Source: Tribonema minus
Taxonomy: Eukaryota > Sar > Xanthophyceae > Tribonematales > Tribonemataceae
Direction of reading: 5' to 3'
Length of the DNA: 64,000 nt
NCBI GenBank assembly: GCA_017506865.1
Contig: JAFCMP010000539.1
Coordinates: 372,001-436,000, forward strand
A program made the translations under genes and the position numbers. The stretch's first letter is position 1, and every line of letters begins with the position of its first letter. The notes beneath the pieces were generated by a model, which saw only the letters and a list, made by a program, of their open reading frames with translations, was not told the DNA's origin and searched no databases. Positions 968 through 50,636 of the stretch are shown here, piece after piece.

Positions 968-3900
968 CTCTTGACGTTCCAGCAGCCTTTCCTGAACCAC
1001 AATGCGGGTCAGCTTCTGTTCTCTCCAGCCGACAAGGCCAAGCCCGACAACCAGCCCTACTATGACCTCTTCATAGCCACAGGTACGCCTCTACTTGATT
1101 TGAAATGATGTCTTCAACTTCTTTGTGAATCACTTCCAGCGCATCAATTACCGAACTGCGTCGTTTTCGCAGCAGGCATGTATGCACGCCTTGACTTGGT
1201 TCCTGAACCTCATTATTAATCACTTCAAGTACCCCGATTTCTCAACTGCTACCTTGTCGCAGCTGCAGGTACATGTGCACGCCTCTACTTGTTGTCCTCA
1301 TGCCTTTCTGCTATACTTGACTGCAATGGCATGCACTGCAGATATGTGACTTGAACCATATTTAGTTCACCCTGCAAACTGTGAAAACCCTGCACACAGG
1401 TGTGTGAGTGACATCACAACAGCACCAACGTGAATCTGCACTCAGTACTTGCAAAACTGCTCCGCACATCACCTAGCGCGCCAGTGAGGGCAAGCTGTGT
1501 GCTACCGAAGCGATGGTCTGCAGATGGTGGCTGTGCTATTCATGATTGCGCAAAGCCCTGAAGGTATTGAGGGTTCAAGCGCAAACGAGCCATTACCTAC
1601 TCTTATCACAAGCATCACAAAACAGCACTTCGCAGGCCAAGTGCAACGCTCACATTCCGTGCAACACATCACCTCACCTCACCGCATAGTGATTCTTCAA
1701 ACTAGCACTTGCACGGTTCGCAGGCGATGGTGGCAGTTTCAGTGACCCGGACGGAAATGCTCAGAACAAGGGGTCGCTGCTGGGAAAGATTCTGCGGATT
1801 CGTCTCTCCACAGACCCCAAGGCCAAGGGCTACACACTCCCCCCCGACAACATCAAAGTGAAGAAGGATGGAAAGGAACAGCTCACAGAGGTGTGCGGGA
1901 ACGTAATACTTCAAGCATGAAGCCTGTGTAGGCCTTACTATTTCAATCTGTCCGTGCAGTGCACGGTGCCGGGTACTGAGCAATAGGCCAACACCGCTTT
2001 TGAGTTGTTGAAGTTCCGGAACTGTTTGAACACACAACAGGCCAAACCGCTTTTGAGTTGTTGAAGTTCCGGAACTGTTTGAACACACACCATTGCTGGC
2101 TGAGCAAAAGTGCGGTGTGTGCAAGCGGCAGCTCACCGCACCCCACCAAGTCCATGCAAGCGGCTATTTTATTGGTTGCAAGTGCAGGGCAGTGACGCTC
2201 CAGCTTCCGCCACCTGCTCAGCAAGTCCTCAGCATGGAGCACGCACGATGGTATCGCAAAGCTTCCTGTGTGATGACTCGAGGAACATGTGCTCATGGGA
2301 CTGTTGGCTTCACCGACACAGGATGCAGTCGCTCACCATTTGCTCAGCATTATCACATCTTCTAGTGCGCAATCGAGTCGTGTTGTATACACAACGTGTG
2401 GTGCCTGGTAGACAATGAGGCGGGGCGCGGTGGTCCAGTATCGTGCGATGTTGAACCCTCAACTGCAAAGGACACGCAAAGTTTGCAGGCGCAGAAATGT
2501 GGAATGTCAAAATCAGAAACTGCGCAGGAGCAACTTCCGCCGCAACACTCGCTGCGTACAGCTACTGCTCAGCTGTTGCACTCCGCCTGTCGCCGCACTA
2601 GTTGTGTTGACCAAGTTGTTTCGGCTATGTGCAATGTGATGGCGGGTCGCCTGTGTGCAGGCTTAGGGTTACGACTAGGGTTAGGGCTGGTGGTGTGCGG
2701 CATCACAAACATTGCACATTGAGCATTGCTGCAGGCAGCCGGCGTTTTGTAACTTCACGGAAAAGTACCCACTTTGCACAAAACCGTTGTCAGTGACAAC
2801 AGCTGGAGCGCCGCCGCCAACTTCAGGCCCAAGCTCAACCACTTGCAGTGTGCTCGATATGATATCTGTCCGTCCCGTGGCAGCTGCATTGATCCCATGC
2901 ATGGGTAATGGCCACTGAACTGACCTCTCTGCTGCGTAACTTCAACTTGAACTGCTTCCTTCCCAGGCTTACGCAACCAGCGCGCTTGACATGCCATTGG
3001 CCCCTGCAGTGCCAGTTGCAATGCCTCGTCGATGTTGCTAAACCCTTACTACCGCCTCTGCGCTGGCTCCCTGTTCCGCAACTTCAACTGCTCCTCACAG
3101 GCGTACGCATACGGCCTCAGAAATCCCTGGCGCTGCTCGTTCGACAGTAAGAGCCTGGACAAGCTCGACCTCTGGTGTGCTGACGTCGGCCAAGACAGAA
3201 TTGAGCGAGTGAGTGTCCATTAGAAGTTAAGTTAACTAGAATATGAAGTACTACGCAGCAATGTGTGCAGGACACAGGCAGTGGTGCGCCGGCGTACAAA
3301 AGTTCATGGTAGTCGGTGAAAGTTTATGCTTCATACCCTGAGAGCGTATCGCTCACAACGTGCCAGAGATGGGCAACCGAGGGACCGAAGCAGATACAAG
3401 ACTTGCGGCTAGTGCGTGTGTTGCTACATAGCAGTGATCACGCAGAGCATGAACAGTGCCCAACAGGGCCCACTTTTGCATGAGCTGCGCTGTACGCTGT
3501 CAGTGCGAAACCATACAACGCAAGTGGTCAATCCCGGGTAGTACATGTGATACGGCTCTTTGCATTTTGCTATGGTTGGCGGCTGTCAAAACAACCCTTA
3601 AAAATACTGACACCTGCATGCACTCTGTGTACAATCGCTGTCACTTGCAGATTGTGAGGGTCAAGGCGGGCGGCAACTATGGCTGGAGGAAGTACGAGGG
3701 AACCAGGTCAGCAAACTTCAACTAACTTCAACGCCACCTGAGGATCAATCCCAGAAATGGCGCAGCTTGAATGTGCCCGCTGCAGTGCTGCTTGCGCCGC
3801 CTGCAACGCTGCGCCTAGCGCGCTTGAAGTGTGACCTGCCAAGCGCAAATGCCTCACAGATGACTCATTGGGTGCGCGCAGCTGACTGGTCCTATGTAGC

Positions 3901-6900
3901 GCATAGAGAGCAGCGGACGTGTGTCATGGTGTGGTGGACTGAGCGTTGAGTACTAAAAAAATCGTGTACCATGTGTACAAGGTATAAGCACATGTGTGGA
4001 TAATACACCGCGTATATTTGTCTACATACTTCGAAGCATGTCCATCTACTCGAGGCATACGCACATGTGTGTGGATAATACACCGTCTTTATCACATACT
4101 TCGAAGTATGTAGTTCATTTTGCTCTGTTGACGGACACGCTCTGTTGACTGACACAGCACGCGTGACTGACACAGCACGCGTGTGCTGCAATTGCCACCT
4201 GCCGCATTCAGAAAAGCAGTGCACGTCCGATGCGCGCCTGTAATCACACCTCAACTTCAACTTGAATGCGAGCCCTGCCAGCCATGTCCCATGACAGAGT
4301 ACAGAGAAATGACGTGTATGCGTCCCATGGTGCGCCTTTGATCAGGGACGATGTGCCGGATGACGATGCGTTTTTCTTCAACTTCAATGCCAGTCGTGCC
4401 AGCAACACGTCCCCTCAGAAAGCACAGAAAACCATGTATGTGTTCACCGCGTGCCTTTGATCAGGGACAACATGCCGGGTGACGACGCATTCAACTTCAA
4501 CTTCAATGTGTTCGTTCTGTGCTTTCTTTTGATCAGAGACAACATTCCGGACGATGACGCCTTCAACTTCACACCGCCAGTCTATCAGTACTGCCACCAG
4601 GGCGAAGCGGGCGAAGACGACGACCCCATCTGCAAGGACAAGCCGTTCACCGGCGAGTGCATCACGGGAGGGTACGTAGGTATCGCGCATATATGGCTTG
4701 CGCGATACGGCATTGGAGCATACTTACCTGTGCCACAACACTGCAAGTGCGACCGCAACTGTAATGCATGCGGCCCCACCCACACAACGGCTTGCGCACC
4801 CGCAATGAGTGCACAATCTTCAAGGGCCAGCAAGCCGTATTGTGTGGCCGGGACGCAATACATTGCGCTTGCGCATGTGGGTTTGCAGCCAAATTTTAAG
4901 ATGCTCTTAGGGCAGGGGTTGCTTGCGTATATGCCAGAGCGTGCTTGTGTCAGCTGTGCAGCGTCAGGGGCCGGTTCAGGGGCGCAACCTGTTGAAGTAT
5001 ACTTTGAAGTACACATGGCGACTTGTGCTCGCGGCACACGCAGAGAGACGATGCATGCACCAGACAAAGTGCCTCATGAAGGCGCGATTCATACGCTTGT
5101 GGCGCGAGAACGCAAGCGCAGCCCCACTCTGCATGTATGTTCACATATTCATGGCCGCGCGCTGCACTAGATTTGTAGGCCTGAGACTCCACTGCCATAC
5201 TCCTTGCATGTCCGCTTGAGTGCTGTGACTCTAAGCATGACGCCTACCCTAAGTCCTAACGCTGCGTCCCTCTTGCTGCTGCAGCTTTGTCTACCGTGGC
5301 GCCAAGCAGTCCGACGTGTATGGCGGGCAGTACATCTTTGCAGGTAAGACTAAGCATCCCACAACATGTAGTGTTCTGCGGCCCTTGGTGTGCAGGTTAG
5401 GGTAAGGCTTAGGGTTAGGGTCAGGCAGTACATTATGCGAGTAAGACCTAGCATCGCACAAGAGTTGTCTTGCCTGTCTGCAATTCTTACCTTGCCTACT
5501 TACGTATCTTACCTTAGCTGCGCTGCGCTATCCCGGCTCCATCAGAACTCTGTATCTGGACCGCAATGCTCCACAAAATCAGGGTGAGAGTGTGATGAAG
5601 TTAACATTTGAAGTAGCCATGGAGTCACAAAGGCTAAATCTGACTTGAGTCGATCTTTAGAATTAGGTTAGGGGTAGGGTTAGGGTTATCGCAAACAACT
5701 TGAGAGGCTTGCCAGCCCTCCTCAAAGACGTGTTTGCAGGCAGATGTAGCCGCTGAGGCACCTGTCGGCAAGGCAAGGCATGTATGTATGTAGTGTGCTT
5801 CCACATGACCCCCCCCCCGCCCCCCCCCAGACTGGCAGGCGCACCGTCTGCTGCGCCTGATCCGCGCGGCCGACAGCGGCTGGCACCGCAACATCACGCT
5901 TTCATCTCTACTTGCAACTTGAACTTGGCAGCTGACACATCGGCGCCATCGGTTCAATTTCAACTTGAATCCCCCCCCCCCCCCCAGACTGGCAGGCGCA
6001 CCGCCTGCTGCGCCTCATCCGCCAGCCCGACGGCGGCTGGCGCGGCGACGTCATCATCACCATGTTCATCCAACTTTGACTTGAACCTTTTTGCACTCCG
6101 CCCTTTCCCTCCTTTAACTTCAACTTGAAACTTGCTGGCAGGCGCACCGCCTGCTGCGCCTCATTCGCCAGCGCGACGGCGGCTGGCGCGGCGACGTCAT
6201 CGTGGACGAGCTCGGCTGGACGGTCTCCTCGCTCGCGGAGGACGACGACGGCGAGCTCTACGTCCTGCGCTACGACTCATCGGGCAGCGCCGCCAACGTC
6301 TACGCGCTGCCGAGCACTGACGTCGCCGCCGCCGCTGCCACCAGCAAATCTGCCGCTCAGACGCCGCAGTACAAGCCCAGCACGGGCAACATGATCGCGC
6401 CCGGCGCGCCGCCGACGCCGCCGCCGCCTGTGGCTGGGGGCACTGGCGTTGTACCCCCGAGCATTCAGTCGACGCAGCCCCCTACCGGTGACGCTCCGGT
6501 GGTGGCGGGGACGGTGCCCCCTGCAGCAGGGGGTGGTGGCGGGTTTGTGCTCCCGCAGCTCGCAAATGCGGCGCCCGTGGACAACAACCCGGTGTCGACG
6601 GTGGGGCGGCCGGTACTGGTGCCGGGGGCGTTTACGGGGGCTTCGGTGAGCGCTGATGCACGATTGCTTATTCGTGGGTTTTCGGCTTCATGTATGGAAA
6701 TTACGGTTAGAGCCAGAAGCTCGATTCTTGTGACTGCGTTGTGGCGCGAGGGGGAATGCTCAACACACATTGAATGGCGATCTGGCGCATCATCTGAGGT
6801 ATGCATGCTGCACGTTGCAGACGGTCTAGCTACCCTTACCCCAACCCTAACCTTTCTTACCCCGAACCGTTGCCCTAACCCTACTTTTATTCTGTGCTGA

Positions 6901-9900
6901 GCGCTGCAGACGGTCTACCTACCCTTACCCAAGCCCCAACCCTAAACCCTCCTACCCCCACCCCTATCCCCTAACCCTAATCTTTCCCTGTGTTGAGCGC
7001 TGCAGACGGTCTCGCCAAAGGACATCATCGCATTATCCGAGGCATGTATGCAGACGGTCTAGCTACACTGACCCCAACCCTGACCCCATTATTCTTTACC
7101 CCAACCCTAGCTCCAACCGTAGTCTTCCCCTGCGTTGCGCACTGCAGATGGCCTCGCTACCCTTACCCAAGCCTTACCCCTACCGTTATTACCCCCAAAC
7201 CCTAGCCTAACCCTAATCTTCCCCTTTTCCTGAGCGCTGCAGACCGTCTCCCCCAACGACATCATCGGGCTGGAGCTGACAGGCAACCGCGGTCGCGTCA
7301 CCGGCATCATAGGCGCGATGGACCCCGGAGACTCAGTCGTCTACACGTTCGACGTGACAGAGTCGGGCACGTTCCCTGTGGTGTTCAGTGTGTCTGGGGC
7401 GCCGCCAGCCAAGCAGCCGCTGTCAATTGTGCTTCTCCCGGGCGCGTGCTCGCTTGTTGACTAGAGGTGCCAATACTTTCAAGTACTTCGAAGTATATGA
7501 TCCCCGAAGAACCTCTTTGCATTGTGAACTTCGAGCGCTACTTCAAAGTATTATCTGTGGGCGCCGCCAGCCAAGCAGCCGCTGTCCATGGTGCTTCCCG
7601 CTTTAAGGGTGCGTGCTCGCTTGCCAACCACGTCGTAAACATGTGATTTTCTCAGCCTCATTTTGCATTGCACACTACAGATGTTAGTTGCGAGTATGTG
7701 CTACATCATACAGACATGCCTACTATCCCCACGTAGGCCACGTCCCCTGCGCCCGGTGCCATGTCCGATGCCCGGAGGGCTCTCAACTTCAACTTCAACA
7801 CAGTGTCCGATGGCCGAATGCCCCTAAACTTCATTGCATGAAATGTCATCGTTCATGGGCCGCAGCGTGTGCTTTTCTTGCTTACTGCGCAACACAGTCA
7901 GCCCCCCCCACCCCCACTGCCCCCCTTACGTCCCCCCGCAGATCGCGCCCCCTGCGTCGCCAGCATTGTGCCCGACGGCCCGGGGTCCCTCAACTTCGAC
8001 GTGCATGAAACGTCAACATTTATTGTCTGCAAAGCTTTTGCCTGTGCTCTCACTCACGCCGTAACACGTCCCATCCCCCCCCCCGCCGCCCCCTGCATCC
8101 CCTCACAGGGCGTGTCCCCTGCGCCGCTAATGTTGTGCCCGACGGCCCGGGGTCCCTCAACTTCTACTGTAACACTGCGCCAGAGGGCAGAAGTTCCATC
8201 AACTTCAACGCTTGAAACGGCAACATTCACGGGCTGCAGCGTGTGCTCTTACTTAGTGCATGCTCAGCTCCTCCCCCCCCCCCCTCGCCCCCCCCAATCT
8301 TCCCCCATTATGTCCCGCCGCAGGCCGCGTCCCCTGCGCCGCCGGCACCGTGCCCGGCGGCCCGGGGTCCCTCAACTTCAACGTATGAAATGCCAACATT
8401 CATGGTCTGCACCGCTTCTTGCCTGTGCTCTCACTCACGCCGCACCCCCCCCTAACCCCCCCAACCCCCCCCTGCCCCCCCTTGACTTCGCCCCCGCAGG
8501 CCGCGTCCCCTGCGCCGCCGGCACCATACCCGACGGCCCGGGGTCCCTCAACTTCGACGCGTTCTACACCAACAACGAGGAGGGCGCGTTCCGCGCACGC
8601 GACGTGACGCTCGTTGCCGGGCGCGCGCAGCCCTACACGCTGTGCTTCGCGCGCGGCGCCTACGCCGACTTCCGCTCCACCTGCATCGGCTTCCAGTGCA
8701 AGTACGACCAGGATCTGCGGCCCGCGGCCGACAAGGGGGGTGACGCTCCGCTGGTGAGCGCTGCCACGGGGACGGGCGGCGTGCAGGAGGCCGTGGCGGC
8801 GGCGGCGGCGGCGGCGCAGCCCGCGGTGATGGCGGCGGCGGGGGAGGCGGTGGCGCTACCGGCAACGTTCAAGGCTGGCGCAGTAAGTGTGCAAGGCAGT
8901 GCTCAGCATAGTAGACAGGCCAGCTTGTGAGGTGAAGGGCGTATGCGCGAAAGGCGCGGCCAGTCAGTTGCGACCTTCGGGGGGCAGCATGAAAGCTGAA
9001 TACTTCGAAGTACATATTTCTGAGTTGTCTGGCGCGTGTGCCGCCCTACGCTGGCATACTGTAGTGCTGCGAGTGCAAGTTTATGCAGTCACGCAGTTCA
9101 GCGGGTCTTGTGACCTATGTAACTGCCGTAACTGCCAAAGTGGACTTGTGCGGCGCACGTGCAGATGTGGGCACGAATGAACCCAGCACCCTTACATCCC
9201 TTGCCCCTGGGTGTGTTTTGCAGCTGGCCCGACGGCAGCGTTGCAGGGTTGCAATGCTACCTTACGTATATATCACAGGCACCATTGCTTCAGGCTGCAG
9301 CAGTCCACACAGGCATGCACAGAACACGTGAAAGCATCATACACTCATCCTGCCCCCCCCCCGCCCCCCCCTCCGCCTTCCCCCTCAACAGGTGGTCAAC
9401 GCCGCCACCGATTTGCGAGGCGTGGAGGTCGACGCTAAGGACCAGTCGCTCGGCTACATTGACGATGGCGACTCTGTCGTCTACACGTTCGATGTTGCGG
9501 AGCCCGGCACGTACGCAGTCGTTTATGGGGTGTACGGCAAGCCGCCTACCAAGCAGCCCCTCTCCTTCTCCCTGCACGAGGGTGAGCCTCAGATGCTGTG
9601 ATAGTCAACTTAAATACTTCATTTCAAGTGGACGTGAGCAACGCTGAGAGGTATCGAAATTCCTGATTTTGAGTGTGAGGACAAGAAGTGACAACATGGC
9701 CCACCCACCCTCCAGCTTGATTCAGATTTATGGTGTGATTGCTTTGATGTTTCACAAGCTGTGGCACCCTAACCCTAACCATAGCACCAACTTTGAAGCT
9801 GACCCTTGCCGTAGCTTTGACTTTAATAAGCTGAAGAAGCATGGCGTATCGAATTTGAGTGAGCCCTTTGACAGCTTGAGCTGCAGATGCCAGAAAACGC

Positions 9901-10314
9901 AGGCGAGTGTGGGTAGCTGCAGCGCTCCACCGTTTCTGTACACAGAGCTGAAACAACAAAGCCGCAGGCATCATGAGATGGCTGGGGAATCATGAACTGT
10001 GTCAGGCTTGCTTGCTTGACTTTGGTTTGGGAACAACTTGGTGTGCGCGCAGCTGCTCTGACTTGCTGCTGCTGCTGCTGCTGCGCGCTTGCACATGCAT
10101 CAGGTCGCGTTCCCTGCGCTGCTGCCGCCGCCGCCGCGGCGCCGTAGAGTTGGAGTTAGGCGTGTCCACGCACTTGTCGACCATGGCTTTAACGTATCGC
10201 ATCACTCACCTGCTGCTGCTGTGTGTATAGGATTAGGGCTAGGGCTAGGATTAGGGTTACATTAGGCGTGTCCACGCACATGTCGGTCATGGCCTTACCC
10301 TGTCGTGCCACTCA

Positions 10315-10406
<92 letters not shown>

Positions 10407-20292: not shown

Positions 20293-21961
20293 CTACGCTG
20301 CCGGCTTGGCCGTGACCTCCGCCAGCAACGCCTGCAGCTTGAGGTGCCCCTCGCATTCCACCGCGTCGCGCCCCGCCTGCACCTTGCTGCAGCACGACTT
20401 GAGGTGCATCTTGGCCTGGTAGAGCGCCGCGGGCGTGCCCTGCGCGCGGTAGGCAGCGCTCAGCTTCTCGCTCGCGTCCGCCACCTGAGCGATCGCCTCG
20501 GGGTTCCTCTCCCAGCCGGAACGCGCCAGCAGCGCTCGACACTGCGGAGCAATGCCACATGATGCATATCAGTGATCAGAATTTCGGTTTAAGATACTCA
20601 GCAAGGTGATCAAAATTGAAGGGCGGCGCCATATTGATGCATGAGAAGATGAGTGACAATACAACCGCCATGCTGAAAGATCATGAAGTGAAGTCTCGTC
20701 TACATGCCAGTGCAGCATGCGACCTTCTGCTTGTGCTGGGCGCAAATGGGTCTAGAGTTGGGGTTACGGTTCACTGACATGTGCTCCTGACGGTACTCGC
20801 AATGCTCACATTATGCAGGCAGGGCCAGGGCACCCCTGCCTCTTACCCTGACACGACCTGTGCATGAAGTGCATAGGCTTTGGTTTCTTGCTTGCAGCCA
20901 CTATTTATGCAAAAATTGACGACGTCGTGCAGCTTGTGCTGGTGTCTGTTGTCCGTCCCCCTCGCATACACGCCTACATACCATACCTACCGATAACCAC
21001 ACACAGCAGCGCTCACGTTGCTTGGCGCGGCAGTCCGCGACCTTGAGCCAGTCTCTCATTGAAATATAGCATACGATACCTACCCATACCCACGCACGGG
21101 GCAGTGCTCACCTGCTTAGCGCAGCAGTCCGTGGCCTTGAGCCAGTCTCTCATTGACATATAGCATACAATGCCTCCCCATACTGTGCCCGCGCACGGGG
21201 CAGCGCTACTTGCTTGCCGCGGCAATTGGCGACCTCGTCCGCACCGCGCGACAGCCTCTCATTGACATATATGCCCCGATTTAGCATGCGATACCTACCC
21301 ATACCCACGCACGGGGCCGCAGTCACCTGCTTGGCGCCGCAGTCGGCTACCTTGTCCGCGCCCCGCGCCAGCCCGTCTCTCAAGGTTTGCCCTAACCTAA
21401 CCCTAACTGCAACCCTAACCCGTCATAACCTACCTACCCCATACTTGCGCGCTAAGGCAGCGCTCACCTGCTTGGCGCGGCAGTCCGCCACCTTGTCCGC
21501 ACCCCGCGCCGGCCTCTCATTGACATGTGAGCTTCCATCTAGCAGGCGATACCTACCCATATGTACCCACACACACAGCAGCGCTCACCTGCTTGGCGCG
21601 GCAGTCCGCGACGTTGTCCGCACCGCGGGACAGCCTCTCATTGACTATGACATACGATACCTACCCATACCCGCGCACGCGGCAGCGCTCACCTGCTTGG
21701 CGCGGCAGTCCGCGACCTTGTCCGCGCCGCGCGCCAGCCTCTCGTTGAACACAGCGTACACCTCCCACGCCTGCGCATCGCTCTTGATGCTCGCTGCCAC
21801 GCGCCCCAGCAGCTCCGCCACCGCCTTCACCAGCGGCACATCCGCAGCAGCAGCAGCGCCGCCGCTGCCGCCGTCCACGCCGCTCTCTACGCCACCGCTG
21901 CTGCCGCCGACCCCGCCGCTGCTGCCGCCGCCGCTGCCGCCGCCGCTGCCGCCAGCGTCTT

Positions 21962-21996
<35 letters not shown>

Positions 21997-31873: not shown

Positions 31874-34800
31874 ATGGCTCTCAGCGAATCGGGCGACGAG
31901 CATAGCAATGGCACCAGCGCCGCGCATGGTGACGCCAACCCATTATTTCGGCCCACCACCTTCCTGGAGAGGGAGGTGGCCAGGTCAGGAGTGCAGGAAG
32001 GGCACGTCTGCAGCTATGTGGCGGAGCAGATGCAGGCGAGGCAGGAGGGGGCGGAGCAGGAGGACATGCGACACAGGTCCAGTTCAAACACAGACAGGGT
32101 GAGTTGACACACAGCGACAGGATAGCACAAATGCGTATAGCACAACGCATCGCCCGCATTCATTAAGATAGAGTACGCAATGGCCGCCGCAGACCGTGCG
32201 CGAAAGTGGACACTCAGCTCATGACGGGTAATTTGTGGCGGGATCCGTTGATAAAACCAGGGCGCTCACATGGTTGACATGTTTGTGCAAGACTGGCGGT
32301 GCATATGATAGATTCTGACGCTTCTTGCAAGTGTGATCATTACTGCGACACACAGTGAAAGGCGTGTCGTTGGCGTTGCGCTGGCGTCAGCGCGCCATGG
32401 CTGGCCAATCGGCTCATCAAGATGACTGACCCCAGCATGAGCGGTGACAGTGCGGTTGAGCCGAAGCTGGCGCTGCCCTGCGCACTTCTCCAGCTTGTTT
32501 TTGTCTGGCAGTTTGGCAGTTGATGGACTCGAAACAGGCGCTGTCGCAGATTGTGGGTCTTGCGTGCATTACTGCTTGCAGTGCGTCATGTCGAAGTCAT
32601 TGCAAACCGTGCCTGCCACTTCGTTGCCCATGACATCAATCTAAACTGTGGAAACGAGGCCAGGTGAATTCCTCATGGGGCAGTAGCCGCAGGTTTTCGT
32701 GCATGCACGTCATTCAACACACTCAACACGCACGCGCTGTTTCGCCTGCGCTCAGTTGAAGCGGGTCGCGGAGGCCAGGCGGGCGGTGAAGGCCAACAAT
32801 GAAGACAGCACCAAGGCTGTCCTCAAGAGCCGTCACACGGAGCGGCTGGGGGCCGCCATCCTGCGGCGGAAGCGCTCGCTCGACAACATCAAGGCGGCGC
32901 GCCAGCTCTACCACAGGCGCGTCGCCAAAGCGCGCATGGACGCGGAACTCGCCGCCGCAGGGTTTCACGAGGAGTGCAGGAGGCCGCGCGACAGCCGCCG
33001 CCGCAGGTGCTCGCTGTCGGCGGAGCGCTTCGAGCGCGCGCGCGCGCACCTCGCCTCGCGCCAGCAGCAGCGGCAGCGGCAGCAGCAGCAGCGCAGCGGC
33101 GGCAGCGGCGCGGAGGCGAACGACGACGAGGAGGGCGCGCTGTCGCAGCACGCGCGCGTCATCCAGGCGTGGTGGCGCTACGTGCGCTGCTGCGGCGGCG
33201 GCGGCGGCAGCGGCGGCAGCCGCTCGGCGTCGCCTGTCCCCGGCCCGCGCGCGCTGCTGCTGCTGCGCGACCTGTCCTCGCCGGGGTCCACCGCAACCGC
33301 AGCGTCGCTCAACGCGGATGAGCGCTGCTGTCACATGGACTACGGCGCCTTCTTCCCGGAGGATATGGAATCGCCGGCGGCGGCGGCGGCGGGGCTGCTG
33401 AGCGGTGCTGCGGAGGCGGCGGCGGGCGCGCGCATCGTGGCGTTTGCGCGGCGGCGGCTGCACGACCTGCGCGTGCGGCGCGGGCTGCTGGCGTGCCGCG
33501 GCCAGATCCTGCAGGTGCGGCCGGCGCGGCGGCGGCCCGTGAGCGCTGTGGCAGGCTGACAAATCCATCGTATAGTGTACTGCTTCAGTATACTTCTTGA
33601 GATATCAAAGTGTGTATATTGGCTTGCGTTGAGAGTTGCATACATACAGGTATATAAGCTTGCATTGCGCGCATGCGCGGCTGAGCACTAGGGCAGCTGA
33701 GCACACAGAGAGCGCGTCGCGCGCAGCGAGTTCGCTGCCGTGCGTGCGTTTCTGCTGGTTGCAATGGCAGCGGCAGTGCGGGCGCCTCTGGAGCGGCGCT
33801 CTGCGTGTCGTGAGCTGGCAACATACCTGTGCCCATGTGCACACTAGTCTAGGCTCGATGAGCACTGCTGTCAAGTGACTTGTTGTTCTGTACGACGCCA
33901 GCACGCGCATCGTGTGGCCGATTTGATCTTCGCTGTCTGAAGCATTTCACGTCTGGGTGCTGGCGTGTTGTTGCCCGGCCCCCCACCCCTCAGGGCCAGC
34001 ACACTACGCCCCGGTATGCGCGCAGACGCCACACAGCACCCCGCTGCGATCCGCACCCCTCACGCCACAACCCCCTCCCCTCCTACACTCACACACGCAA
34101 CCCTCCCCAACCCCCCCTCCCCTCCGCACGGCATCGCCGAGAGGCCGCGTGCAATACCTACCTACCATGACCCCCCACAAACAAACTCACATGACCCCCC
34201 CCCCCCCCCCAAACTCACGACACAGTCGCGCGCGGAGTGCCTCAGCCCATGCTTCAGAAACGACACAATGGCAGGACTGCCCTCTTGTCAAAGGCACTCA
34301 CATTACCCCCCCCCCTTCCCCCGTGTGGCAACGCTCAGGTAGCGGAGGCGCTGCGCGCGCGATGCCTACACTCTGCGCAGTACCATCACTACCCCCCCCC
34401 CACCAAGCTCACCTCACCCCCCCCACAAACTGAAACGTGTGACCACCCCCCCCCCCCTCCCCCGTGGCAATGCTCAGGTAGCGGAGGCCCTGCGCGCGAT
34501 GACAGCGCGCCACCCCGCCACCGGCGCGCCGCCCACCTTCGCCTCCGCCTCCGCGGCGCTGCGCGCGCCCGGCCTCGCCGCCGCCGCCGACGCGCTGCTG
34601 CGCGCTCTGCGCATGGGGCGCGCGATGCGCGGCGTGCCGCCGTGCGCGCGCAACGCGCGCGCGTTCCTCACGGCGCTGCTGATCCACGCCACGCCCGCGG
34701 AGGCGCTCGACGCGCCGCCGCCGCCGGAGATCGTCACGCGCGATGGGGCAGGTGCGGAGGGGTTGAAGTTTGTGAAAGTTTTGGAAAGTTGAAGTAGGTT

Positions 34801-37800
34801 CCTCACGGCGCTGCTGATCCGACGTGCCTCCGCCGCCGGAGATCGTCACGCGCAATGGGGCAGGTGCGGAGGGGCTGAAGAGGGGTTTGAAGTTTGACGG
34901 TTGCGTTGGAAACTTGAAGTAGTTGCTGACCGCGCATGGCCAGTGAGGCTTGTGGAGTTGATTGAAGCGCTGCCGCCGCCGGATATGGTCACGTGCGACG
35001 GGGCAGGTGCATGCGTAGCGTCGCTGTTGATATTTTGTTAACAACCTCAAGGTTCTGTTGGGCGCGCCTCATTATACTCGTGCCCGCGCAGTCCATTGAA
35101 GCGCCGCCGCCGCTGGAGATCGCTTGCATGCGGCGGCTCGGGTGCGGATTGGGTTGAAGTTGTGAACGTCAGCGCTTCTTCAAGTAGGCTCAGCGAAGGG
35201 GGTTTGCGGTGCCACCGCCGCCATGCACCATGAAAGCAGGCCCCCACACCGTGTGCCTTACTTCATCACAGGTGCAGGCCGCCGGCGGAGAGCGGCTGCT
35301 CATGCCTACGTGGCACATGTGCACCGCGCATGATCGCAACATCACCCCACGTCTCTGTGGACACACATGTCTACTTGCACTGCCTTGGCCCCTGACCACT
35401 TGCTGCCCCTCTTTCCCCCCCCCCTCATCCCCCCCCGCGCACCCTACACCTAGTCGTACCTGCGACGCAGCCCGTCAACGCGGAGCTCCAAGCGCAGCTG
35501 CGGCTGGAGCGTGCAGCGCTGCTGCGCGTGGCGGACGCCGTCGCGTCGGCGGTGCTGGAGCTGGCGGCAGCAGCGGAGACGGCGGCAGCGGCGGCAGCGG
35601 CGGGGCGCGCTGCGCTGGCGGCGGCGGCGGCGCGGCTGGCGCGCTCGCGCGTCGCGTTCTGCGCACGTCTTGAGGTATGTATGTATGTATGTTGGCTGCG
35701 TGCGTGATGGGCAAGCCCGCTTGTCGCTTGTAGATGTGCGGCATTGCGGCTACGCGATCAGCGCCTCGTAAGTACATGTGTGCAGAAGTCGGGCGCGTGT
35801 GTGACAGCGGTGTGATGCGTGAGCACACAGTGGCGGCGGCGGCGGCGGACGGCTGTGGTTTGGTGGAATGCGGTACGCCTGCGCTCAGAGATACGTGTGC
35901 GCAAAGAACTTGGCGGGGCGCATGCCTCGCTGTCAGCAGTGCCACGTGCTGCGCACCCCCGCCTCGCTCTGCAAAGTTCACATCTGAAGTTCGTCCCCTA
36001 CTCAGAAACCTCACACACCCGCGCCTCTCCGGCCTGCCATCCTTGCTGAGAGCTGCTGCAGTTCCAGAAACATTACGCCTGTGTCGACAGACACGTGCAC
36101 AATGGCGCACATGCATTGCCATCGCACTACTGCTCAATTTTCAATCACGAGGCTGTGTGCCCATGTCATGTGCAGTCCTGGAAGCGTCTCGACGAACGCC
36201 TTGCATAACTTCAAGTTTGAAGTGCGGCTTTCTCAGAAACCTTGCACCTCCCTGTCAATCACACCCTTGCTGAACGCTGCTGCAGTCCTGGAAGCGCCTG
36301 GACGCAGAGCGCCTAGCAGAAGAGATGGAGGCGGCGATGTTCTGCCGTGTAATAACGCCTAGGTCTACAGACAAGTGCACAATGGCGCAAACATGCATGG
36401 CTGTCGTACTACTCCTCATTTCTCACCCCGCTGACCGCTACACACTCATCCTTACTGGACATTGCTGCAGTCCTGGAAGCGACTCGATGCGGAGCGCCTC
36501 GCGGAAGAGATGGAGGCGGCGATGGTCGACATCCTGCTGGTGCAGCTGCGCGCGGAGCGGGACCTGAGCGTTGCTGCACGGCGGCTGGGACTTGATGCTG
36601 ACGCCGCCTACGCTGCCGCTGCCGCCGGAAGCGATGGCTCTGAGCGTGAGTAGAGTCACTTGAAGTCAGTATGAGTAGATTCTTGGAGCGATATGGGCGC
36701 CGCAGACGCCGCCGCTGCCGCTGGGGGCAACGGCTCGGAGAGTGACTAGAGTCACTTGAAGCCAGTATGAGTAGAGTCTTAGAGTGATGCAAACGCCGCG
36801 TCACCGCCGCGGCCGCCGTGGGCGACGCCTCTGAGCGTGAGTAGAGTCACTCGGAGTCCCGAAGTGTAGAGACGTGGAGTCGTGTTGAGTTGCAATGCAT
36901 CTGATAATTCGACGCGTTTTGACGTCGAAACCCAAATTTCCAAATGTTGGAAAAAATGTCTCGCTTTGGCGTCATCTGAGGTGATGTTCGCCATGGCCAG
37001 GGAGTAAGGGCTAATGCCAGATCCGCAAAGGCACCGCGCGCCACATTATTAGCAACTGCCATTGATAACCACTCCTCCCCCTTCCCCTGTTTTTTCGCTA
37101 AAGAAGTTGCTGACCGCAGCCCCCCCCCCCCCCCAGACCTGACAGCCGAGCCCATGCTCGCCACGGGCTACCGCCAGATCCGCAAGGGCGCCGCGCGTCA
37201 CGTATTTATCAACTGCCCTTGAACCCCCCCCCCCCCTTTCCACTATCATCAGCTAAAGAAGTTGCTGACCGCAAACCCCCCCACCCCCACCCCCACCCCC
37301 AACCCCCCCGCAGCCGAGCCCGTGCTCGCCACGGGCTACCGCCAGATCCGCGAGGGCGCCGCGCGCCACGTCGCGCGCATGGCCTCCGCGCTGCTGCGCC
37401 TCATTGGCCCCCACGCCGCGCACGCGCGCGTCGAGCGCGCCGCCGCCGCCGCCGCCGCCGCCTTCGCCGCCGCCGCCGCCCCCGCGCCGCCGTCCGCCGC
37501 CGCTGCCGCCACCGCCGTCGCCGCCGCCGCTGCCGGCGGCGGCGGCAGCGGCGGCGGAGAGGTGCGCTGCGATGGCGGCGGCAGCGGCTGCGGCAGCGGC
37601 ATGGTGGAAGTGGCGGAACCGGCGGAGGTGACGATGCACGCGGCGCAGCAGCCGGCGGCGGTGGCGCGGCCGCTGTCTGCGGGGGACCTGCTGGGGAATG
37701 ACTGGCTCGTGCACGAGATCATGGTGGCGGAGGGCATGGTGCAGGTGCTTAACAGCTTTAACCCTAACCCTAAAACCTAACCCTAAACCCAAAACCTAAC

Positions 37801-40800
37801 CTTAGCCCTGGCTCTAACCCTTGCTGCTTGAATGAGTGGATGTTTGATGGTGTACTACACCTGTATTTGTGATACAAGTGTCTATGGTGCAGGAGCGGAC
37901 ACTGGTGCTTTTGATAATGAGCGCATGTTTGATGGTGCAGTGCTTGAGGCATGCATGCCTTGCAGGTGTGTATGGTGCAGGTGCGGACATCGCTGCTGGA
38001 ATGAATGGGTGTTTGATGGTCTATGTAGTACATAAAATATGTACTTTGCAGGAAGTGTTCCAAGTGCATGTGCTGTGTAGCTGCCGTACACATGGCTGGC
38101 CCACGAGTACGTGTGCGAAGGCACAGAGCCCAGGCTGCTCGACCAGCATGCAATGTGCTTTTGTGTCTTGCACTGCATTGCTCGTTTATTGTCATTTTTT
38201 TTCCACAGGTGCCTGTGTCGACCAGAATGCATGAACTTGTGTTTGCAAGGACGAAGGTGCTGGCGCGCCAACAGTCACGAACCCTAACTTAGCCCTCATT
38301 AACAGCCCACCATGCAGCCTGCTGCGTGCAAGCGACTGCTCGCAAGTACACGCCCCCCCCCCCCCCCCTCGCTGCAGTGCCACGTGCATTGAGTATGAGT
38401 AACACCACCTCACGCACAAGTCCTAGGTAGGGGGTCGGCGTTAGGTCGGTGTCATATACCAACGCAATCATTGCAGTTTCTTATTTTACCTGCGCACGCG
38501 CCCCGACGCTCCCCACTCCCCCGCCAGGTCGCCCTGGACGACGCGCTGGAGAACGGTCTTCTGGACCGGTCCATCGCCGGTACCTCGGCGCCGTTCCGCG
38601 GCGGCGCGAGCACGCGCATCGAATCACCATCCTACACGCGCATGTCCTACGAGCAGACACTGATGCAGTTTCTCAGAGCTTCTGACATCTGTAATGTCAC
38701 GCCTTGCACTCCCCATCACCCGCCAGGTCACCCTGGACGAAGCGCTGGAGAACGGTCTTCTGGACCATTCCATCGCCGGTACCTCGGCGCTGTTCCGCGG
38801 CGGCGCCAGCGCGTTCTGGGCGCGCGCCGGCGCCGCCTTTGAGCGCGGCGACTTCACGCCGCTGTTTGGCATTGTGGCAGCGCTCCGCGACCGCATCACG
38901 GGGCTCACGCCGCGCAGGGGGGACCTGGCCGAGGAGACTGCGGGGGTGAGCACGAATGTACTTCAAAGTTGAAGTAGATGGGGTTGAAGTGATAGGGTCG
39001 GGGGTTGAGGTTAGGATTAAGGTCTTTGAGCACGGCGACTTCACGCCGCTGTTTGGCATCGTGGCAGCGCTCCGCGACCGCATCACGGGGCTGACTGCGC
39101 GCCGGGGCGACCTGGCAGAGGAGACCGCGGGGGTGAGCGCGTAACGTAGTTTAAAATTGAAGTAGATGGGGGTTCTTGAAGCGGAGAAGACTGTCACGAT
39201 CATAACAATTGTTGAGGGGGGTTGGGATTAGGGATGACTCTGTGCGCAGGGGAAGCTGGCCGAGGGAAACCGCGGGTGTGAGCGCGAAATGTAGTTCAAA
39301 TTTGAAGTAGTGTGTGGCCTTTTTGAGTGGAGCAGACTTAGAGTGATGGTTTGGGGTAAGGCTTAGGGCTAGGGCTAATTGTGAGCGCGGCAAATGTATG
39401 CTGTTGGGTATAGAAATGCCACTAACTGCTATTGCATACAGTAGTCTTGTTCTGCACTACGCGCGTTATCATTGAGAGCACTTTCTCATGCCATCCTGAT
39501 GATGGGGGCTGACAGAAACCTGACTCTGCCGCGCATGGAACAGGCTATGGACGTGGAACTGCTGGCTCACATCGCAGCACACCAGGCAGCTCCCATTGAG
39601 CTGCTAAGCGTACTTGGTCAAGCACCACTAACTGCCAATACATAGTCTTGTCCGCCACATTGCACGATACGGGTGCTGACAGCAGGCTTGCTTCACTGCG
39701 CACCGAACAGGCTATGGATGTGGAACTGCTGGCTCAGATGGCAGCACACCAGGCACTAGATCCTTCCGCCCTGTTCCGCCTCATTGGCTTTGCGGGCAAC
39801 CGCGTGCTGGAGTTGGAGGCGCCTGTGCACAACGCCGGCACGGAGGCCACTCTCAGGTGAGCAGCTGCTGTCAGCATGAACTTCAACCATCAACGATCAA
39901 TCACTTCAAGTATCACTCTAAGTATCACTCTTGATGTATGTGTGCTGTGCATAAAGAATGCTGGCATGGAGGCTACTCTCAGGCGAGCAGCGCTGCCTGC
40001 CAGCATGAGGTATGAATTGACTGCTTCAGTGATTTCTTGAAGCGTGCAGAAAGCACGGAGGCCACTCTCAGGTGAGCAGCACTGCCTGCCGGCATGAACT
40101 TCAACTAACAACCGAATTGAATAATGAACTTCAATTTGTGCAGGGAGTGGGCGGCTACGGCGGCGGCAGTGGAGGCGGGGCAGCGCTCCGTTGACGTGAC
40201 GTTCGTGCAATAAACCTTGAATCACATTGAATTTTGTGCATAAACTGAAGTTTAAACTTCACCTTGACGACCCTTTTGGGCAATCTCAAACCTCATCTTG
40301 AACCTTCAATCTTACAGGGGGTGGGCGGCAACAGCGGCGGCGGTGGAGGAGGGGCAGCGCTCCGTTGACGTGGCGTTCGTGCGGTCCGCTCTCGAGTACT
40401 TGCTGGCCAAGACGGACGAGATTCACGTGGACATCATCAATGCGCACCTGCAGTACGTCGTGCCGTTCCTGCGCCAGCACGGTGAGACAGCGGAAGCGCA
40501 CCTGTGAGCAGCGGAGGGGCACCTTGTTGTCGTGGTTTTACTTTTGCCTGGATAACTTGTCGCACTTGTCCTCGTTGTCGTAGTTGTATGTCCTCGTTGA
40601 AGTTGTCCTCATTGCCGTTGTCGGTGTGTCCTTAATATAGTTTTCCTGGCAGTTGTCGGTGTTGGCAGTTACAGCACTGCAGTGGTGAGCGTTGCTGCGA
40701 CGGCTCTGCAGGAGGAGCTATGCCTGCAGGGCGGCCAGCAATAGCACGGCCTTTTATAACAACACGGGCTTGTAGGGCCTTATAATTTGTAAACCTGAAG

Positions 40801-43705
40801 TATACCCTGAAGCATGCGCGCAGGCCCCTGGAAGTTAGGTGTTTAATGTGTTTCCGTTGTCATGACACATGCAGCAGTTCTGCACCCCGGGAGCATGCGA
40901 CAATTCCGCGTTGCAGACGCACCGGTGTTACATGCAAACCCTCATACCCCTCCCCTCAGCCAAATTGCTCAGGCGTCGAGCGCGAGCGCCACCGCTTTGC
41001 AAACGCGCATTGTAACATACCAGGTGCAAACCCTCACATCTACCCCTCCCCGTCCCCCCTCCCCCCTCCTCCTCCACCCCTCACCCCTTACAAAGAATAT
41101 TGTCAGGCGTCGAGCACGAGCGCGACCGCTTTGCAAACACGCATCGCAACATACCAGGTGCAAACCCTCAAACTTATCCCCCTCCCCCCCACCCCCACCC
41201 CCACCCCCACCCCCCACAAAAATCACCTTTGCAGGCGTCGAGCACCAGCGCGACCGCTTCGCGGAGCGCCTCGAGGAGGACGAGGTCACGCTCATACTTA
41301 CCCCCCCCCAACCCCCCCCCCCCCCCCCCCCCGCCGCCCCAATTAAACGTTAGGCGTTGAGCACGAGCGCAACCGCTTTGCAGACCCTCATACCCCCACC
41401 CCCACCCCCCACAAAAATATCTTCAGGCATCGAGCACGAGCGCGACCGCTTTGCGGAACGCTTGGAGGAGGACGAGGTCACGCTCACACCTTACCCCCTG
41501 ACACCCCCCCCCCCCCCCCCCCCCCCCCCCCGGCTGCTCCAATTCAACGTTTAGGCGTTGAGCACGAGCGCGTCCGCTTAGCGGAACATGCACTGAAACA
41601 TACCAGGTGCAACCCCTCAAACTTACCCCTACCACCCCCTTCACCCCCTACCCCCCACAACTGCATTTTTTCTTCAGGCGTCGAGCACGAGCGCGACCGC
41701 TTTGCGGAGCGCCTCGAGGAGGACGAGGTCACCCTCTCGCGCACGCACCACTGGCTCGAGCGCGCCATCCAGCGCGTGCGGCGCGAGGCAAGCAGCAGCG
41801 CTCCGGAGGCGCCCGCGGCGGCCGCGCTGCTGGCGGGCCTCGCGGCTGCGCACGGCGGCGCATACCTCGAGCTGCTGCGGCGCGGCATGGTGGATGACTT
41901 GCTGGGGGTCATCGTGCGCGCCGACGCCGCGACGCAGGTACGCGCTCGTGGTGCGCTGCGCGACTGTTACCCCATGTATTCATTCATGTAGATGCGAGTC
42001 CCGCACTGGCATTGTATGTGACACGGCATGGTGGACGATTTTGGGCGTCATCGTGCGCGCTGATGGCGCAGGTGCGTGCTCTTGTTGCGGTGCGAGAATG
42101 CTATCTATGTGCATCTGAATGTATGCAGTAGGTACATATGTATGTAGGCTTGCACACTTCATCACCCCCCCCCTCACACCACACATATACCTAACCTGAC
42201 CTCCCCCCCCTCTCCCCTCTAGGGCGACACCGCGTTCGACGGCTTCGTCCCTGCCCCTCGAGTTGCACATTGCACTGGAGGGTATGTACCCTCACATTCT
42301 ACCTCATGCACTCACCTGCCCCCCCCCCCCCCCCCATCTCATCGCGCCCCAGGGCGACGCCGCGTTCGACGGCTTTGTCCCCGTCCCCGAGTGCGCAGGC
42401 ACATTGCAGTACGTAGAGGGTGTGTAGGTTGCACACTCCATTACACACCTACCCCACCTCACACACATACCTAACCTACCCCCCCCCCCTCCCCCAGGGC
42501 GACGCCGCGTTCGACGGCTTCGTCCCCGTCCCCGAGACCCTCGAGCAGGACCAGGCGCGCCTCGTGGACATTGCCGCAGGCATCGAGCAGGCGGCGTATG
42601 TGGCAGCGCTCAGCGCCATTGCCAAGCAGCTGCTCGGCGCATCGCGCGTCGCGGTGGCGGCGGCAGACGAGGAGGCGCTGCGCGACGCTCTCGGCGCGCT
42701 GCTTGCGGCGTCGGACGCGTCGAGCGCTGACATTGCTGCGCAGGTGCGTCACCCGCGGCATTTCTCTGTGTGACTTGAAGTAGAGGCGCTGTGCGACGCT
42801 CTTGGCGCGCTGTTTGCGGCGTCGGACGCGTCGAGCGCTGACATTGCTGCGCAGGTGCGCCACCCTCTTCCGTTCTGTGCAACTTCACAAGTAGAGGCGC
42901 TGCGGTGCGCGCTGGTGGCGGCGTCGCGCCTGCTATCGCCAACGACTCTGGGTTGAATTTGAATATCTTCATTTTGTGCAGCACTCGCATGCGCTGTAGA
43001 CGTCCAAAGGGGCCTATGCCACATGTGCCGGCTGCCGGCCTGAGCAACACCTCTGCCCGCCCCGTCTTGCACAGCGCCAGTCTAAGGCAGCGAGCCCCGT
43101 CTTCAACTGCGCTTGACTTGACCCCGCTGACGCCGCATCACGCGCACCCGCTTCACCGCGCTACGCTGCAGCCGTCCATAGTAAATGCTGACAGCGCACA
43201 CTCCCTCCCCCCCTCCCCCCCCAACCCCCCCTTTCCTCCCCCCCTTCCCCCCCCGCCCCAGGTGCTGCAGAGCTGCCGCGCCGTCGCCGCGCGCGTCGGC
43301 CGCCCGCTGTGCCCGCAGCACTGCGCGCTGCTCTCCTCGCGCGCCGCGGCGGTGCTCGGCGGCGCGTGCCCCGTCTACCGCCTGTACCTGCGGCGCGCGC
43401 TCGCGGCGCTGCGCGAGCTGCTGGTCGCAGGCGGCGCGACGGACGCCGCGGCGTTCGCCGCCGCGCTGGCGCGACGCGGCCTCGGCGCGCAGGCACCGCT
43501 GCTCACGCAGCGCGTCGCGCGCCCGTTGCTGCGCATCCAGCGCCACAGCGAGGCCGTCTTTGCGCCGTACTACAACGAGATGGTGCCGCTCGCGCTCGGC
43601 GGCAGCGCCGCTGCCGCCGCTGCTGCTGCCGCCGGCGGCGCTGCTGCCGGCGGCGGCAGTGGGCCGCAGCTGTTGAGCGCGGGCGTGGCGATGATCTTGG
43701 ATTGA
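31874..43705 (+). CDS. T-complex protein 11 (TCP11/SOK1) family protein
   Basis: Twelve exons: 31874-32098, 32756-33514, 34478-34751, 35454-35674, 36471-36645, 37314-37744, 38727-38945, 39711-39856, 40318-40481, 41678-41937, 42498-42743 and 43262-43705. All phases agree: 1187 aa. An N-terminal coiled, Arg-rich region (LKRVAEARRAVKA, ARQLYHRR) with an IQ-like ARVIQAWWRYV precedes the TCP11 core. The core shows ARAFLTALLIHATPAEAL, SWKRLDAERLAEEMEAAMVD, NDWLVHEIMVAEGM, ASAFWARAGAAFERGDFTPL, LRDRITGLTPRRGDLAEE, MDVELLAQMAAH with LIGFAGNRVLELEAPVHN, DEIHVDIINAHLQYVVPFL and VEHERDRFAERLEED. The end resembles the plant/fungal tail (CPVYRLYLRRALAALREL). Family members act in cAMP-linked signalling (yeast SOK1) and, in mammals, sperm function; the role in this organism is unknown. 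Exon 4's acceptor (CACCTAG at 35453) was chosen for phase. Poly-Ala/Gly inserts occur in exons 2, 4 and 6. Confidence 0.88.
33515..34477 (+). repeat. TCP11 intron 2 with a copy of the exon 3 acceptor edge
   Basis: GTGGCAACGCTCAGGTAGCGGAGGCGCTGCGCGCG at about 34324-34360 duplicates the exon 3 junction (GTGGCAATGCTCAG then GTAGCGGAGGCC). It includes a poly-C tract and AG, breaking after about 24 exon bases. The rest of the intron is C-rich toward its 3' end, and nothing else is recognised in it. Confidence 0.8.
34752..35453 (+). repeat. Three copies of the 3' edge of TCP11 exon 3
   Basis: Exon 3 ends CCGCCGCCGGAGATCGTCACG...GGGGCAG then GTGCGG. Relatives with the same donor occur at about 34800-34870, 34935-35015 and 35085-35150. 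Each is followed by GGTTGAAGTTTG, GCTGAAGAGGGGTTTGAAG or GGGTTGAAGTTG. The copies begin near TTCCTCACGGCGCTGCTGATCC, again about 60-80 bp from the donor. Confidence 0.85.
36050..36470 (+). repeat. Copies of the 5' edge of TCP11 exon 5
   Basis: TGCTGCAG followed by TCCTGGAAGCG...GACGCAGAGCGCC precedes the true exon at 36471. One copy, at about 36283-36345, runs 60 bp into exon sequence through GAGATGGAGGCGGCGATG before diverging. An earlier one at 36173-36215 breaks at CATAACTTCAAGTTTGAAG. A trace (CTGCTGCAGTTCCAGAAAC) is seen near 36053. Each is followed by the same ACAGACA-GTGCACAATGGCGCA intron unit. Confidence 0.85.
36646..37313 (+). repeat. Copies of the exon 5 donor edge and the exon 6 acceptor edge of TCP11
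   Basis: Downstream of exon 5, the GCCGCTGCCGCC...TCTGAGCGTGAGTAGAGTCAC junction is repeated in diverged form at about 36700-36760 and 36790-36855, with ACTTGAAG between. Upstream of exon 6, GCCGAGCCCATGCTCGCCAC through GGCGCCGCGCGTCACGT at about 37145-37205 copies about 60 bp of the exon start behind a poly-C tract and CAG. Confidence 0.85.
37745..38726 (+). repeat. TCP11 intron 6: donor-edge copies of exon 6 and an acceptor-edge copy of exon 7
   Basis: After the exon 6 donor, CCTAACCCTAAA repeats (about 37758-37805) are followed by several short relatives of GGCATGGTGCAGGTG, for example at about 37883, 37935 and 37970. At about 38518-38605 a poly-C tract, CCAG and GTCGCCCTGGACGACGCGCT duplicate about 80 bp of the exon 7 start; the copy reads DDALENGLLDRSIAGT against DEALENGLLDHSIAGT in the true exon. 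Confidence 0.82.
38946..40317 (+). repeat. Edge copies of TCP11 exons 7, 8 and 9
   Basis: The exon 7 3' edge (GGCGACTTCACGCCGCTGTT to the GTGAGCGCG donor) is repeated almost perfectly at 39030-39140 and in shorter form at about 39248-39290; each is followed by GTACTTCAAAGTTGAAGTAG-like sequence. The exon 8 5' edge (GAACAGGCTATGGACGTGG) occurs at about 39535-39580. Exon 8 3' edge traces (GAGGCCACTCTCAGGTGAGC) are at about 39965-39990 and 40055-40082. The exon 9 5' edge (GGGAGTGGGCGGCTACGGC) is at about 40141-40205, followed by a frame-closing TAAACC. Confidence 0.87.
40482..41677 (+). repeat. Six copies of the 5' edge of TCP11 exon 10
   Basis: The exon 10 start (GCGTCGAGCACGAGCGCGACCGC) is echoed at about 40974, 41106, 41235, 41353, 41427 and 41556, before the true exon at 41678. 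Copies at 41235 and 41427 reach about 60 bp into the exon, through GAGGACGAGGTCACGCTC. Those at 40974, 41106 and 41556 switch early into AACATACCAGGTGCAAACCC. All are separated by very long poly-C tracts, up to about 30 C with few interruptions, so each copy looks like a complete acceptor. Confidence 0.9.
41938..43261 (+). repeat. Edge copies of TCP11 exons 10 and 11
   Basis: At about 42029-42080, CATGGTGGACGATTTTGGGC to GCGCAGGTGCGTGCTC repeats the exon 10 donor edge. At about 42222-42260 and 42353-42395, GGCGACACCGCGTTCGACGG and GGCGACGCCGCGTTCGACGG repeat the exon 11 start. After exon 11, GAGGCGCTGTGCGACGCTCT to GCTGCGCAGGTGCGCC at 42783-42860 is a nearly exact donor-edge copy introduced by ACTTGAAGTA. 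A fragment follows at about 42893. Confidence 0.88.

Positions 43706-50577: not shown

Positions 50578-50636
<59 letters not shown>

Follow-up and report, generated by a model that had tools for sequence, protein, structure and literature searches.

Local copies of exon edges in the introns of Tribonema minus genes

In a stretch of 64,000 nucleotides from Tribonema minus (the window, C536:372001-436000 in a genome of 158 Mb), the introns of three genes contain copies of the adjoining exon edge together with its splice site. This raises the question of how such copies arise and whether splice junctions are a preferred source of them. A copy of this kind is called an echo here: donor-side echoes consist of the exon end plus the donor, and acceptor-side echoes of the acceptor plus the exon start (Table 1). 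The three genes had been selected for their exon-edge copies by an earlier, sequence-only reading, which biases counts made in them. Exons were predicted ab initio with a small exon-chain gene finder trained on the same genome. Among the gene names given by that reading, TCP11 was confirmed (PF05794, E 1.2e-32), while for the gene named TTC27 TPR families were matched and the TPR identity alone is confirmed. The HHIP label is unconfirmed, the GSDH match (E 0.15) lying below the cut-off.

Table 1. Echoes in the window, by gene and source exon (window positions)
Feature	Source exon	Position	Strand	Alignments	Evidence	Remark
Acceptor-side echo	HHIP-like 7243-7445	6816..7030	+		self-comparison, alignment	
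Donor-side echo	HHIP-like 7243-7445	7554..7623	+		alignment	
Acceptor-side array	HHIP-like 8500-8882	7728..8383	+	4	alignment	
Donor-side array	TPR gene 21679-22211	20976..21644	-	6	alignment	
Acceptor-side echo	TPR gene 21679-22211	22249..22310	-		alignment	
Donor-side echo	TPR gene 22810-23094	22691..22764	-		alignment	93% identical
Acceptor-side echo	TPR gene 22810-23094	23231..23335	-		alignment	
Donor-side echoes	TPR gene 24109-24372	23620..23975	-	3	alignment	
Acceptor-side array	TPR gene 24109-24372	24463..24856	-	3	alignment	
Donor-side array	TPR gene 26589-26706	26106..26541	-	4	alignment	
Donor-side echo	TPR gene 27103-27257	26906..26942	-		alignment	match ends 8 bp before junction
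Acceptor-side array	TPR gene 27103-27257	27313..28051	-	6	alignment	
Donor-side echo	TPR gene 28301-28516	28142..28230	-		alignment	
Acceptor-side echo	TCP11 34478-34751	34306..34359	+		alignment	
Donor-side echoes	TCP11 34478-34751	34798..35169	+	4	alignment	one is a 23-bp exon-only match, junction not reached
Acceptor-side echo	TCP11 36470-36645	36262..36342	+		alignment	
Donor-side echoes	TCP11 36470-36645	36698..36880	+	2	alignment	
Acceptor-side echoes	TCP11 37314-37744	37008..37203	+	2	alignment	
Acceptor-side echo	TCP11 38727-38945	38509..38614	+		alignment	92%
Donor-side echoes	TCP11 38727-38945	39024..39310	+	2	alignment	
Acceptor-side echo	TCP11 39711-39856	39504..39588	+		alignment	
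Donor-side echoes	TCP11 39711-39856	39957..40112	+	2	alignment	
Acceptor-side echo	TCP11 40318-40481	40125..40208	+		alignment	
Acceptor-side array	TCP11 41686-41937	40969..41585	+	6	alignment	
Donor-side echo	TCP11 41686-41937	42024..42103	+		alignment	
Acceptor-side echoes	TCP11 42498-42743	42124..42391	+	2	alignment	
Donor-side echo	TCP11 42498-42743	42783..42926	+		alignment	

Exon-edge copies in the window and in sampled genes

Echoes were found at 27 of the 40 splice junctions examined in the three window genes. These comprised 60 alignments, 27 each in TCP11 and the TPR gene and 6 in the HHIP-like gene, whose upstream exons (968-5343) were left out of the counts; the sequence-only reading had estimated about fifty. 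Self-BLAST of the window yielded 88 direct and 5 inverted repeat pairs less than 2 kb apart, with one array contributing several pairs, and every one of the inverted pairs overlaps a self-palindrome or simple sequence. Three Markov-shuffled windows contained no local repeats, direct or inverted, and the exon-edge copies can be regarded as real. Local direct repeats were also present in 18 of twenty 10-kb stretches taken at arbitrary genome positions, which together held 153 direct and 9 inverted pairs at a density of 0 to 43 pairs per stretch. In the window and in these stretches, the repeats are thus local and in the same orientation, as in patch-type or tandem duplication. Among 91 repeat pairs from the random stretches, 65 have less than 10 bp inside any high-scoring predicted exon. 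Since so many duplications lie away from junctions, duplication is general, with junctions as favoured but not sole sites.

Several repeats of other kinds were observed in the window. At 48512-49207, an intergenic full tandem repeat has a period of 345, an aligned length of 351 and 98.6% identity. It lies within a segment of about 5-6 kb (47144-53161) that recurs some 11-12 kb further on, at 59139-64000, with 70-80% identity. The 345-bp duplication appears to be confined to one copy of this segment, because its two units both match one and the same region, near 60598-60762; a 113-bp array (60988-61315) is found in the other copy. Positions 1-230 form a high-copy repeat, with about 40 scored genome places matching at 97-100%, many of them with a nearby inverted partner.

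The curated set comprised 13 genes with 76 introns and 152 junctions. For RPN1 (L011), the exons match the solved 26S subunit over query residues 1-497; the alignment is split in two, and a segment of the subunit is absent between the two parts. Those of CCT3 (L030), picked by skipping the echoes, align to the solved CCT-gamma with a single one-residue gap, and all 31 CCT introns used are GT-AG. The sample carries its own biases, as RPN1, ABCB and ABC1K were taken from random stretches already known to be repeat-rich, and the CCT sample covers 6 of about 10 loci, three of which (C5, C51, C135) showed overlapping matches hinting at echoes beforehand. RPN1, ABCB, ABC1K, TCP11b, CCT1, CCT4 and CCT7 form the less biased gene set. 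A genome search with PF00504 gave 92 chlorophyll a/b-binding matches, as is likely for a photosynthetic alga; an LHC exon, in the frame tried, had no match to a solved structure at 1e-10. By eye, frames at L013:9200-9505 and L020:3774-6674 resemble a sliding clamp of the virus type and helicase-like proteins, and may have been inserted from a large DNA virus.

Across the 13 genes, at least one echo was found at 66 of 152 junctions, giving 133 alignments with a maximum of 8 at one junction. The load differed between genes, with echoes at 14/20 junctions in TCP11a, 8/10 in CCT8, 1/18 in TCP11b, 1/12 in CCT1 and 0/4 in CCT7. CCT subunits are co-expressed and yet unequally loaded, so expression level alone is unlikely to cause the differences between genes. 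Two CCT genes on the same contig (L033 and L034, both C279) have echoes at 1/12 and 6/18 junctions.

As the sequence-only reading had claimed, the copies carry the splice site. Of the 65 donor echoes aligned over this site, 60 have an intact GT, and of the 51 such acceptor echoes, 49 have an intact AG (131 alignments, 13 genes), which makes 109 of 116 overall; 15 alignments end short of the splice site. Exon parts measure 13 to 135 bp, with a 10-90% range of 21-72 bp and a median of 47 bp, in agreement with the 20-80 exon bases first described. The intron part has a median of 39 bp, with less than 10 bp of intron homology in 32 of the 133 alignments, and 123 alignments reach the junction to within 5 bp. 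Peeling of the arrays gave 128 events, 58 donor-side, 50 acceptor-side and 20 internal, so that the donor and acceptor sides are hit about equally.

The nearest echo lies 79-302 bp off (median 147, interquartile range 123-172), and successive echoes are spaced by 80-180 bp in 108 of 133 cases; local repeats of the random stretches outside the curated genes show a broader spacing (median 164, interquartile 104-265, n=60). Eleven pairs, at junctions or elsewhere, reach at least 92% identity; their copies measure 46-125 bp and are separated by 19-180 bp, and one of these pairs (61048) belongs to a three-copy array. Copies abut in 3 of 32 pairs, as well as in the 345-period repeat described above, and copy length is uncorrelated with spacing (Spearman -0.01, n=45). 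The separation of such similar copies and the missing correlation run counter to plain tandem duplication, and full-period tandem duplication followed by decay was rejected as hard to fit to these pairs. Whole-exon duplication was likewise rejected, as no alignment spans a complete exon and the copied parts (13-135 bp) come from a single edge; with queries of at most 150 bp of exon, the largest exon-covered share in the 133 alignments is 70 of 81 bp, in CCT5.

Position of the duplications relative to splice junctions

Anchoring of the duplications at junctions above the random intragenic expectation is supported, with a strength that depends on the sample. In the random stretches, 22 of the 91 pairs cross a predicted exon edge, compared with 10.4±2.6 expected when each pair is shifted locally with its joint kept outside exons, an approximately two-fold excess reached in 0 of 500 placements. 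The same placement test in the window gave 27 of 54 pairs against 12.4±2.8. Independent events in the curated genes, counted after collapsing and once per junction side, fall at junctions in 64 of 83 cases (0.77; bootstrap over the 13 genes 0.67-0.85), the remaining 19 being internal. RPN1 intron 4 was excluded from these events because an exon is probably missing there, and was kept in the alignment counts and intron totals. The less biased gene set has 20 of its 30 events at junctions, with a p value of 0.007 under the analytic expectation and 0.06 under the simulation maximum of 0.51. Where nothing had hinted at echoes beforehand, in three of the CCT loci, the count was 7 of 12, which is not significant (p=0.21).

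In eight genes, the last predicted exon was examined at its 3' end; not all of these ends are proven to be terminal or stop codons. Local duplication was seen at 0/8, for which the chance estimated from per-gene rates is about 0.01. Beyond the curated genes, a further 31 predicted exons have a repeat coverage of about 8% at the edge and 2-4% deeper in the exon, against 13% for non-coding sequence at large, a profile that counts against a uniform strong pattern. Some frames among these 31 exons resemble transposon or virus genes by eye. The sequence-only reading had proposed repeated, junction-anchored local duplication, to be checked by comparing junctions with other intragenic sites. The comparison showed the junction excess in the random stretches, a non-significant result in the CCT loci without a hint, and common duplications off junctions. 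The local, same-orientation character and the anchoring above random are supported; a dedicated junction-copying process stays hypothetical.

Exon edges might merely appear special if tandem duplication had no junction preference at all: hits within exons would be purged, and junction-crossing copies would persist, as the correct frame could still be read from the outer splice site. The geometry fits such a model, since nearly all alignments reach the junction (123/133) and exon-internal sources missing the junction are rare. It is also consistent with the 65 of 91 random-stretch pairs outside predicted exons, with the short exon part, which is obtained from random short sources, and with the CCT loci without a hint, where 7/12 is not significantly raised. 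The junction share, however, does not follow. Against the observed 0.77, forward simulation of random tandem duplication, run through the same pipeline, produced junction fractions of 0.43-0.51, and random copy-paste of short segments 0.21-0.36, although the latter reproduced the short exon parts. Unequal detection was gauged with implants in real echo-free introns, of which 98% of internal and 100% of junction ones were recovered at 9% ageing per copy, and 65% and 82%, respectively, at 15%; up to 12% ageing, internal duplications are detected nearly as well as junction ones. The excess in the random stretches and the absence of duplication at the eight gene 3' ends also speak against the model. 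Simulations and implants thus failed to give the observed share (64/83; 22 vs 10.4), the prediction of random duplication under purifying selection was not borne out, and we consider this explanation doubtful.

Decay of the copies and growth of introns

In arrays with at least two echoes, changes confined to a single echo number 25/31/39 over codon positions 1/2/3. As this distribution is near even, the copies are read as dead. Changes confined to the exon in the same arrays number 1/0/7, and 24 further changes could not be assigned; for these counts 39 of the 91 exons qualified, each having just one stop-free frame. When all pairs from such exons are taken together, the differences between echo and exon number 93/66/161, the pattern expected if one of the two sequences is an exon under constraint. 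The echo copies thus look dead and appear to decay near-neutrally. Divergence with distance, which the sequence-only reading had described as increasing, shows no significant trend, since identity falls in 38 cases, rises in 27 and ties in 1 (p=0.21).

Where 25 bp or more of intron is aligned (84 pairs), exon parts are about 90% identical and intron parts about 82%. Gaps number 0.56 per 100 in exon parts and 3.53 in intron parts, a difference beyond the simple neutral expectation to which alignment ends and low-complexity introns may contribute without explaining it in full. This low gap rate would favour a function for the echoes, retained as decoy or alternative splice sites or as alternative exons. 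The splice dinucleotides point the same way, being intact in 109/116 when, by our own estimate, roughly 83% would be expected at about 9% divergence, but the 15 alignments that stop short of the splice site include possible losses that would cancel this excess. The even spread of echo-lineage changes over codon positions shows no clear bias, and the exons of CCT3, chosen without echoes, fit CCT-gamma apart from one residue. Of 66 nearest-echo distances, 26 are divisible by three, close to one third. In-frame alternative use was set aside, as the distribution of these distances modulo 3 (26/23/17) is uninformative. A functional role for the echoes is, on this evidence, unlikely.

The growth of introns through local duplication, which had been suggested for the window, is supported. 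Affected introns (55 of 76) have a median length of 751 bp, which drops to 407 bp once the duplications are collapsed, compared with 411 bp in unaffected introns. Intron lengthening without transposons is an open question, and here local duplications supply 37% of the sequence of the 76 introns. A TCP11 paralogue lies on another contig (L029); its exon stretches share 70-83% identity with the window gene where the match is stronger. Of its 18 junctions, 1 has an echo. The gene models pair nine of the ten TCP11 introns of the window with introns of this echo-poor paralogue. Summed over the nine, these introns measure 3881 bp in the paralogue and 6816 bp in the window, or 3199 bp after collapsing, and the window intron is the longer one in 8 of the 9. 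The window TCP11 intron 35674-36470 is missing from the paralogue, where the exon is continuous, which may reflect either a gain or a loss.

Origin of the copies and known systems

A family of mobile elements or introners that carry or capture splice sites could in principle scatter such copies, and one spacer offers a hint of this kind. The 42 bp between the echo at 22691..22764 and its exon 22810-23094 hold a hairpin, GTACTTCAA...TTGAAGTAC (22767-22792), and the pattern GTACTTCAA(N3-20)TTGAAGTAC has 33 occurrences in the genome, compared with 0 for a reversed control. The hairpin word is present in some joints only. The spacers, however, seem mutually unrelated by eye, and the echoes are copies of the adjoining exon edge. 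When one array (27160-28100) was searched against the genome, its sole match was itself. Introners, as outlined in PMC9860276, belong to families defined by a sequence of their own, and target duplications of 3-9 bp accompany some of them; similar copies across genes were not found for this array, and no dispersed family stands behind it, in line with the initial view that the echoes are not introners. A mobile origin is therefore very improbable. An assembly artefact is still harder to maintain and can be given next to no weight, as the pattern recurs across many contigs and the copies differ by about 10% in the exon part and about 17% in the intron part (84 pairs), with indels besides, differences that assembly errors do not create.

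The joints were also searched for a common key. GAAGTT-type words occur at 26 of 121 joints against 16.6±3.4 in the control, a weak enrichment, and telomere words at 12 against 9.6±2.6, no clear excess. A key made of CTTCAA/GAAGTT palindromes and telomere-like CCCTAA was rejected, as the controls leave a modest GAAGTT enrichment only. The telomere repeat is TTAGGG, a unit that would also suit some Chlamydomonadales and was seen at 2 of 10 contig ends examined, and AACTTC is the second commonest tandem unit of 5-8 bases in the sample, behind the telomere unit.

Our preferred explanation, with a probability of about 55%, is that the echoes are scars of recurrent small local duplications that prefer junctions and most likely stem from nick or break repair. 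Nicks or breaks in an intron would be repaired by patch synthesis and end joining, yielding a local duplication, tandem or partly so, that includes filler, and such duplications would form preferentially across exon-intron junctions. Each event would copy a short segment, often with about 50-125 bp still recognisable and typically including 20-80 bp of exon, and would place it about 147 bp off inside the intron in unchanged orientation. The original outer splice site would remain in use, as only that site preserves the reading frame, the copied edge would decay neutrally, and repeated events would lengthen introns from their ends. What the data show are junction-crossing local copies in one orientation, their near-neutral decay, the growth of introns, recurrence on many contigs and more junction events than random placement gives; no event was seen to be polymorphic. 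We infer the cause in nick or break repair, the splice site that is used, and the mutational, non-selective nature of the junction preference; this preference may reflect a mutational hot spot or an unrecognised selective filter.

More tentatively, splice junctions might themselves be mutational origins, each repeatedly seeding copies of itself some 147 bp inside the intron. The seed, present at both the 5' and the 3' splice site, could be a positioned nucleosome, a paused polymerase with an RNA hybrid, or a nascent RNA template protected by the spliceosome; introns would grow inward from both ends, and dead splice sites would accumulate. This possibility draws on the near-equal donor and acceptor events (58, 50), the median distance of 147 bp and the 0/8 at gene 3' ends. 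A mutational preference would mean that splicing or exon chromatin leaves its mark on the DNA itself. The echoes also constitute a natural test of splice-site choice, in which the spliceosome must pass over many close copies of the correct site.

A search of open-licence literature by titles and abstracts found no description of exon-edge copies with their splice site, which does not prove their absence from print. Repair of the patch type, proposed above as the likely source, has its closest counterpart in the patch-mediated tandem duplications of rice (Vaughn and Bennetzen 2014), as described in a review (PMC7407515). According to the section of that review drawn on here, they are local, tandem or partly tandem, 10-1000 bp long, in some cases from within 200 bp of the break, and are ascribed to paired nicks and end joining. 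Such repair gives local duplications of the right size. The rice description, in the same section, leaves exon-intron anchoring unmentioned, whereas in T. minus junctions are favoured and splice sites are copied.

In Chlamydomonas and Volvox, tandem repeats are concentrated near intron-exon junctions (PMC3887541), and the echoes resemble them in the excess toward intron ends, reported as strongest in green algae. The account given there, in the portion relevant here, counts tandem-repeat motifs and does not state copies of exon edges with the splice site. Intron gain by tandem genomic duplication (PMC3296678, in its outline) is similar in that locally duplicated gene segments interact with splicing; there the duplication makes a new intron, while echoes lengthen existing introns and carry an existing site. 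With introners, found in green algae among others (PMC9860276, in the part used here), the echoes share the presence of many splice-site copies within genes, but introners form dispersed families with a sequence of their own, and echoes are local copies of each exon edge.
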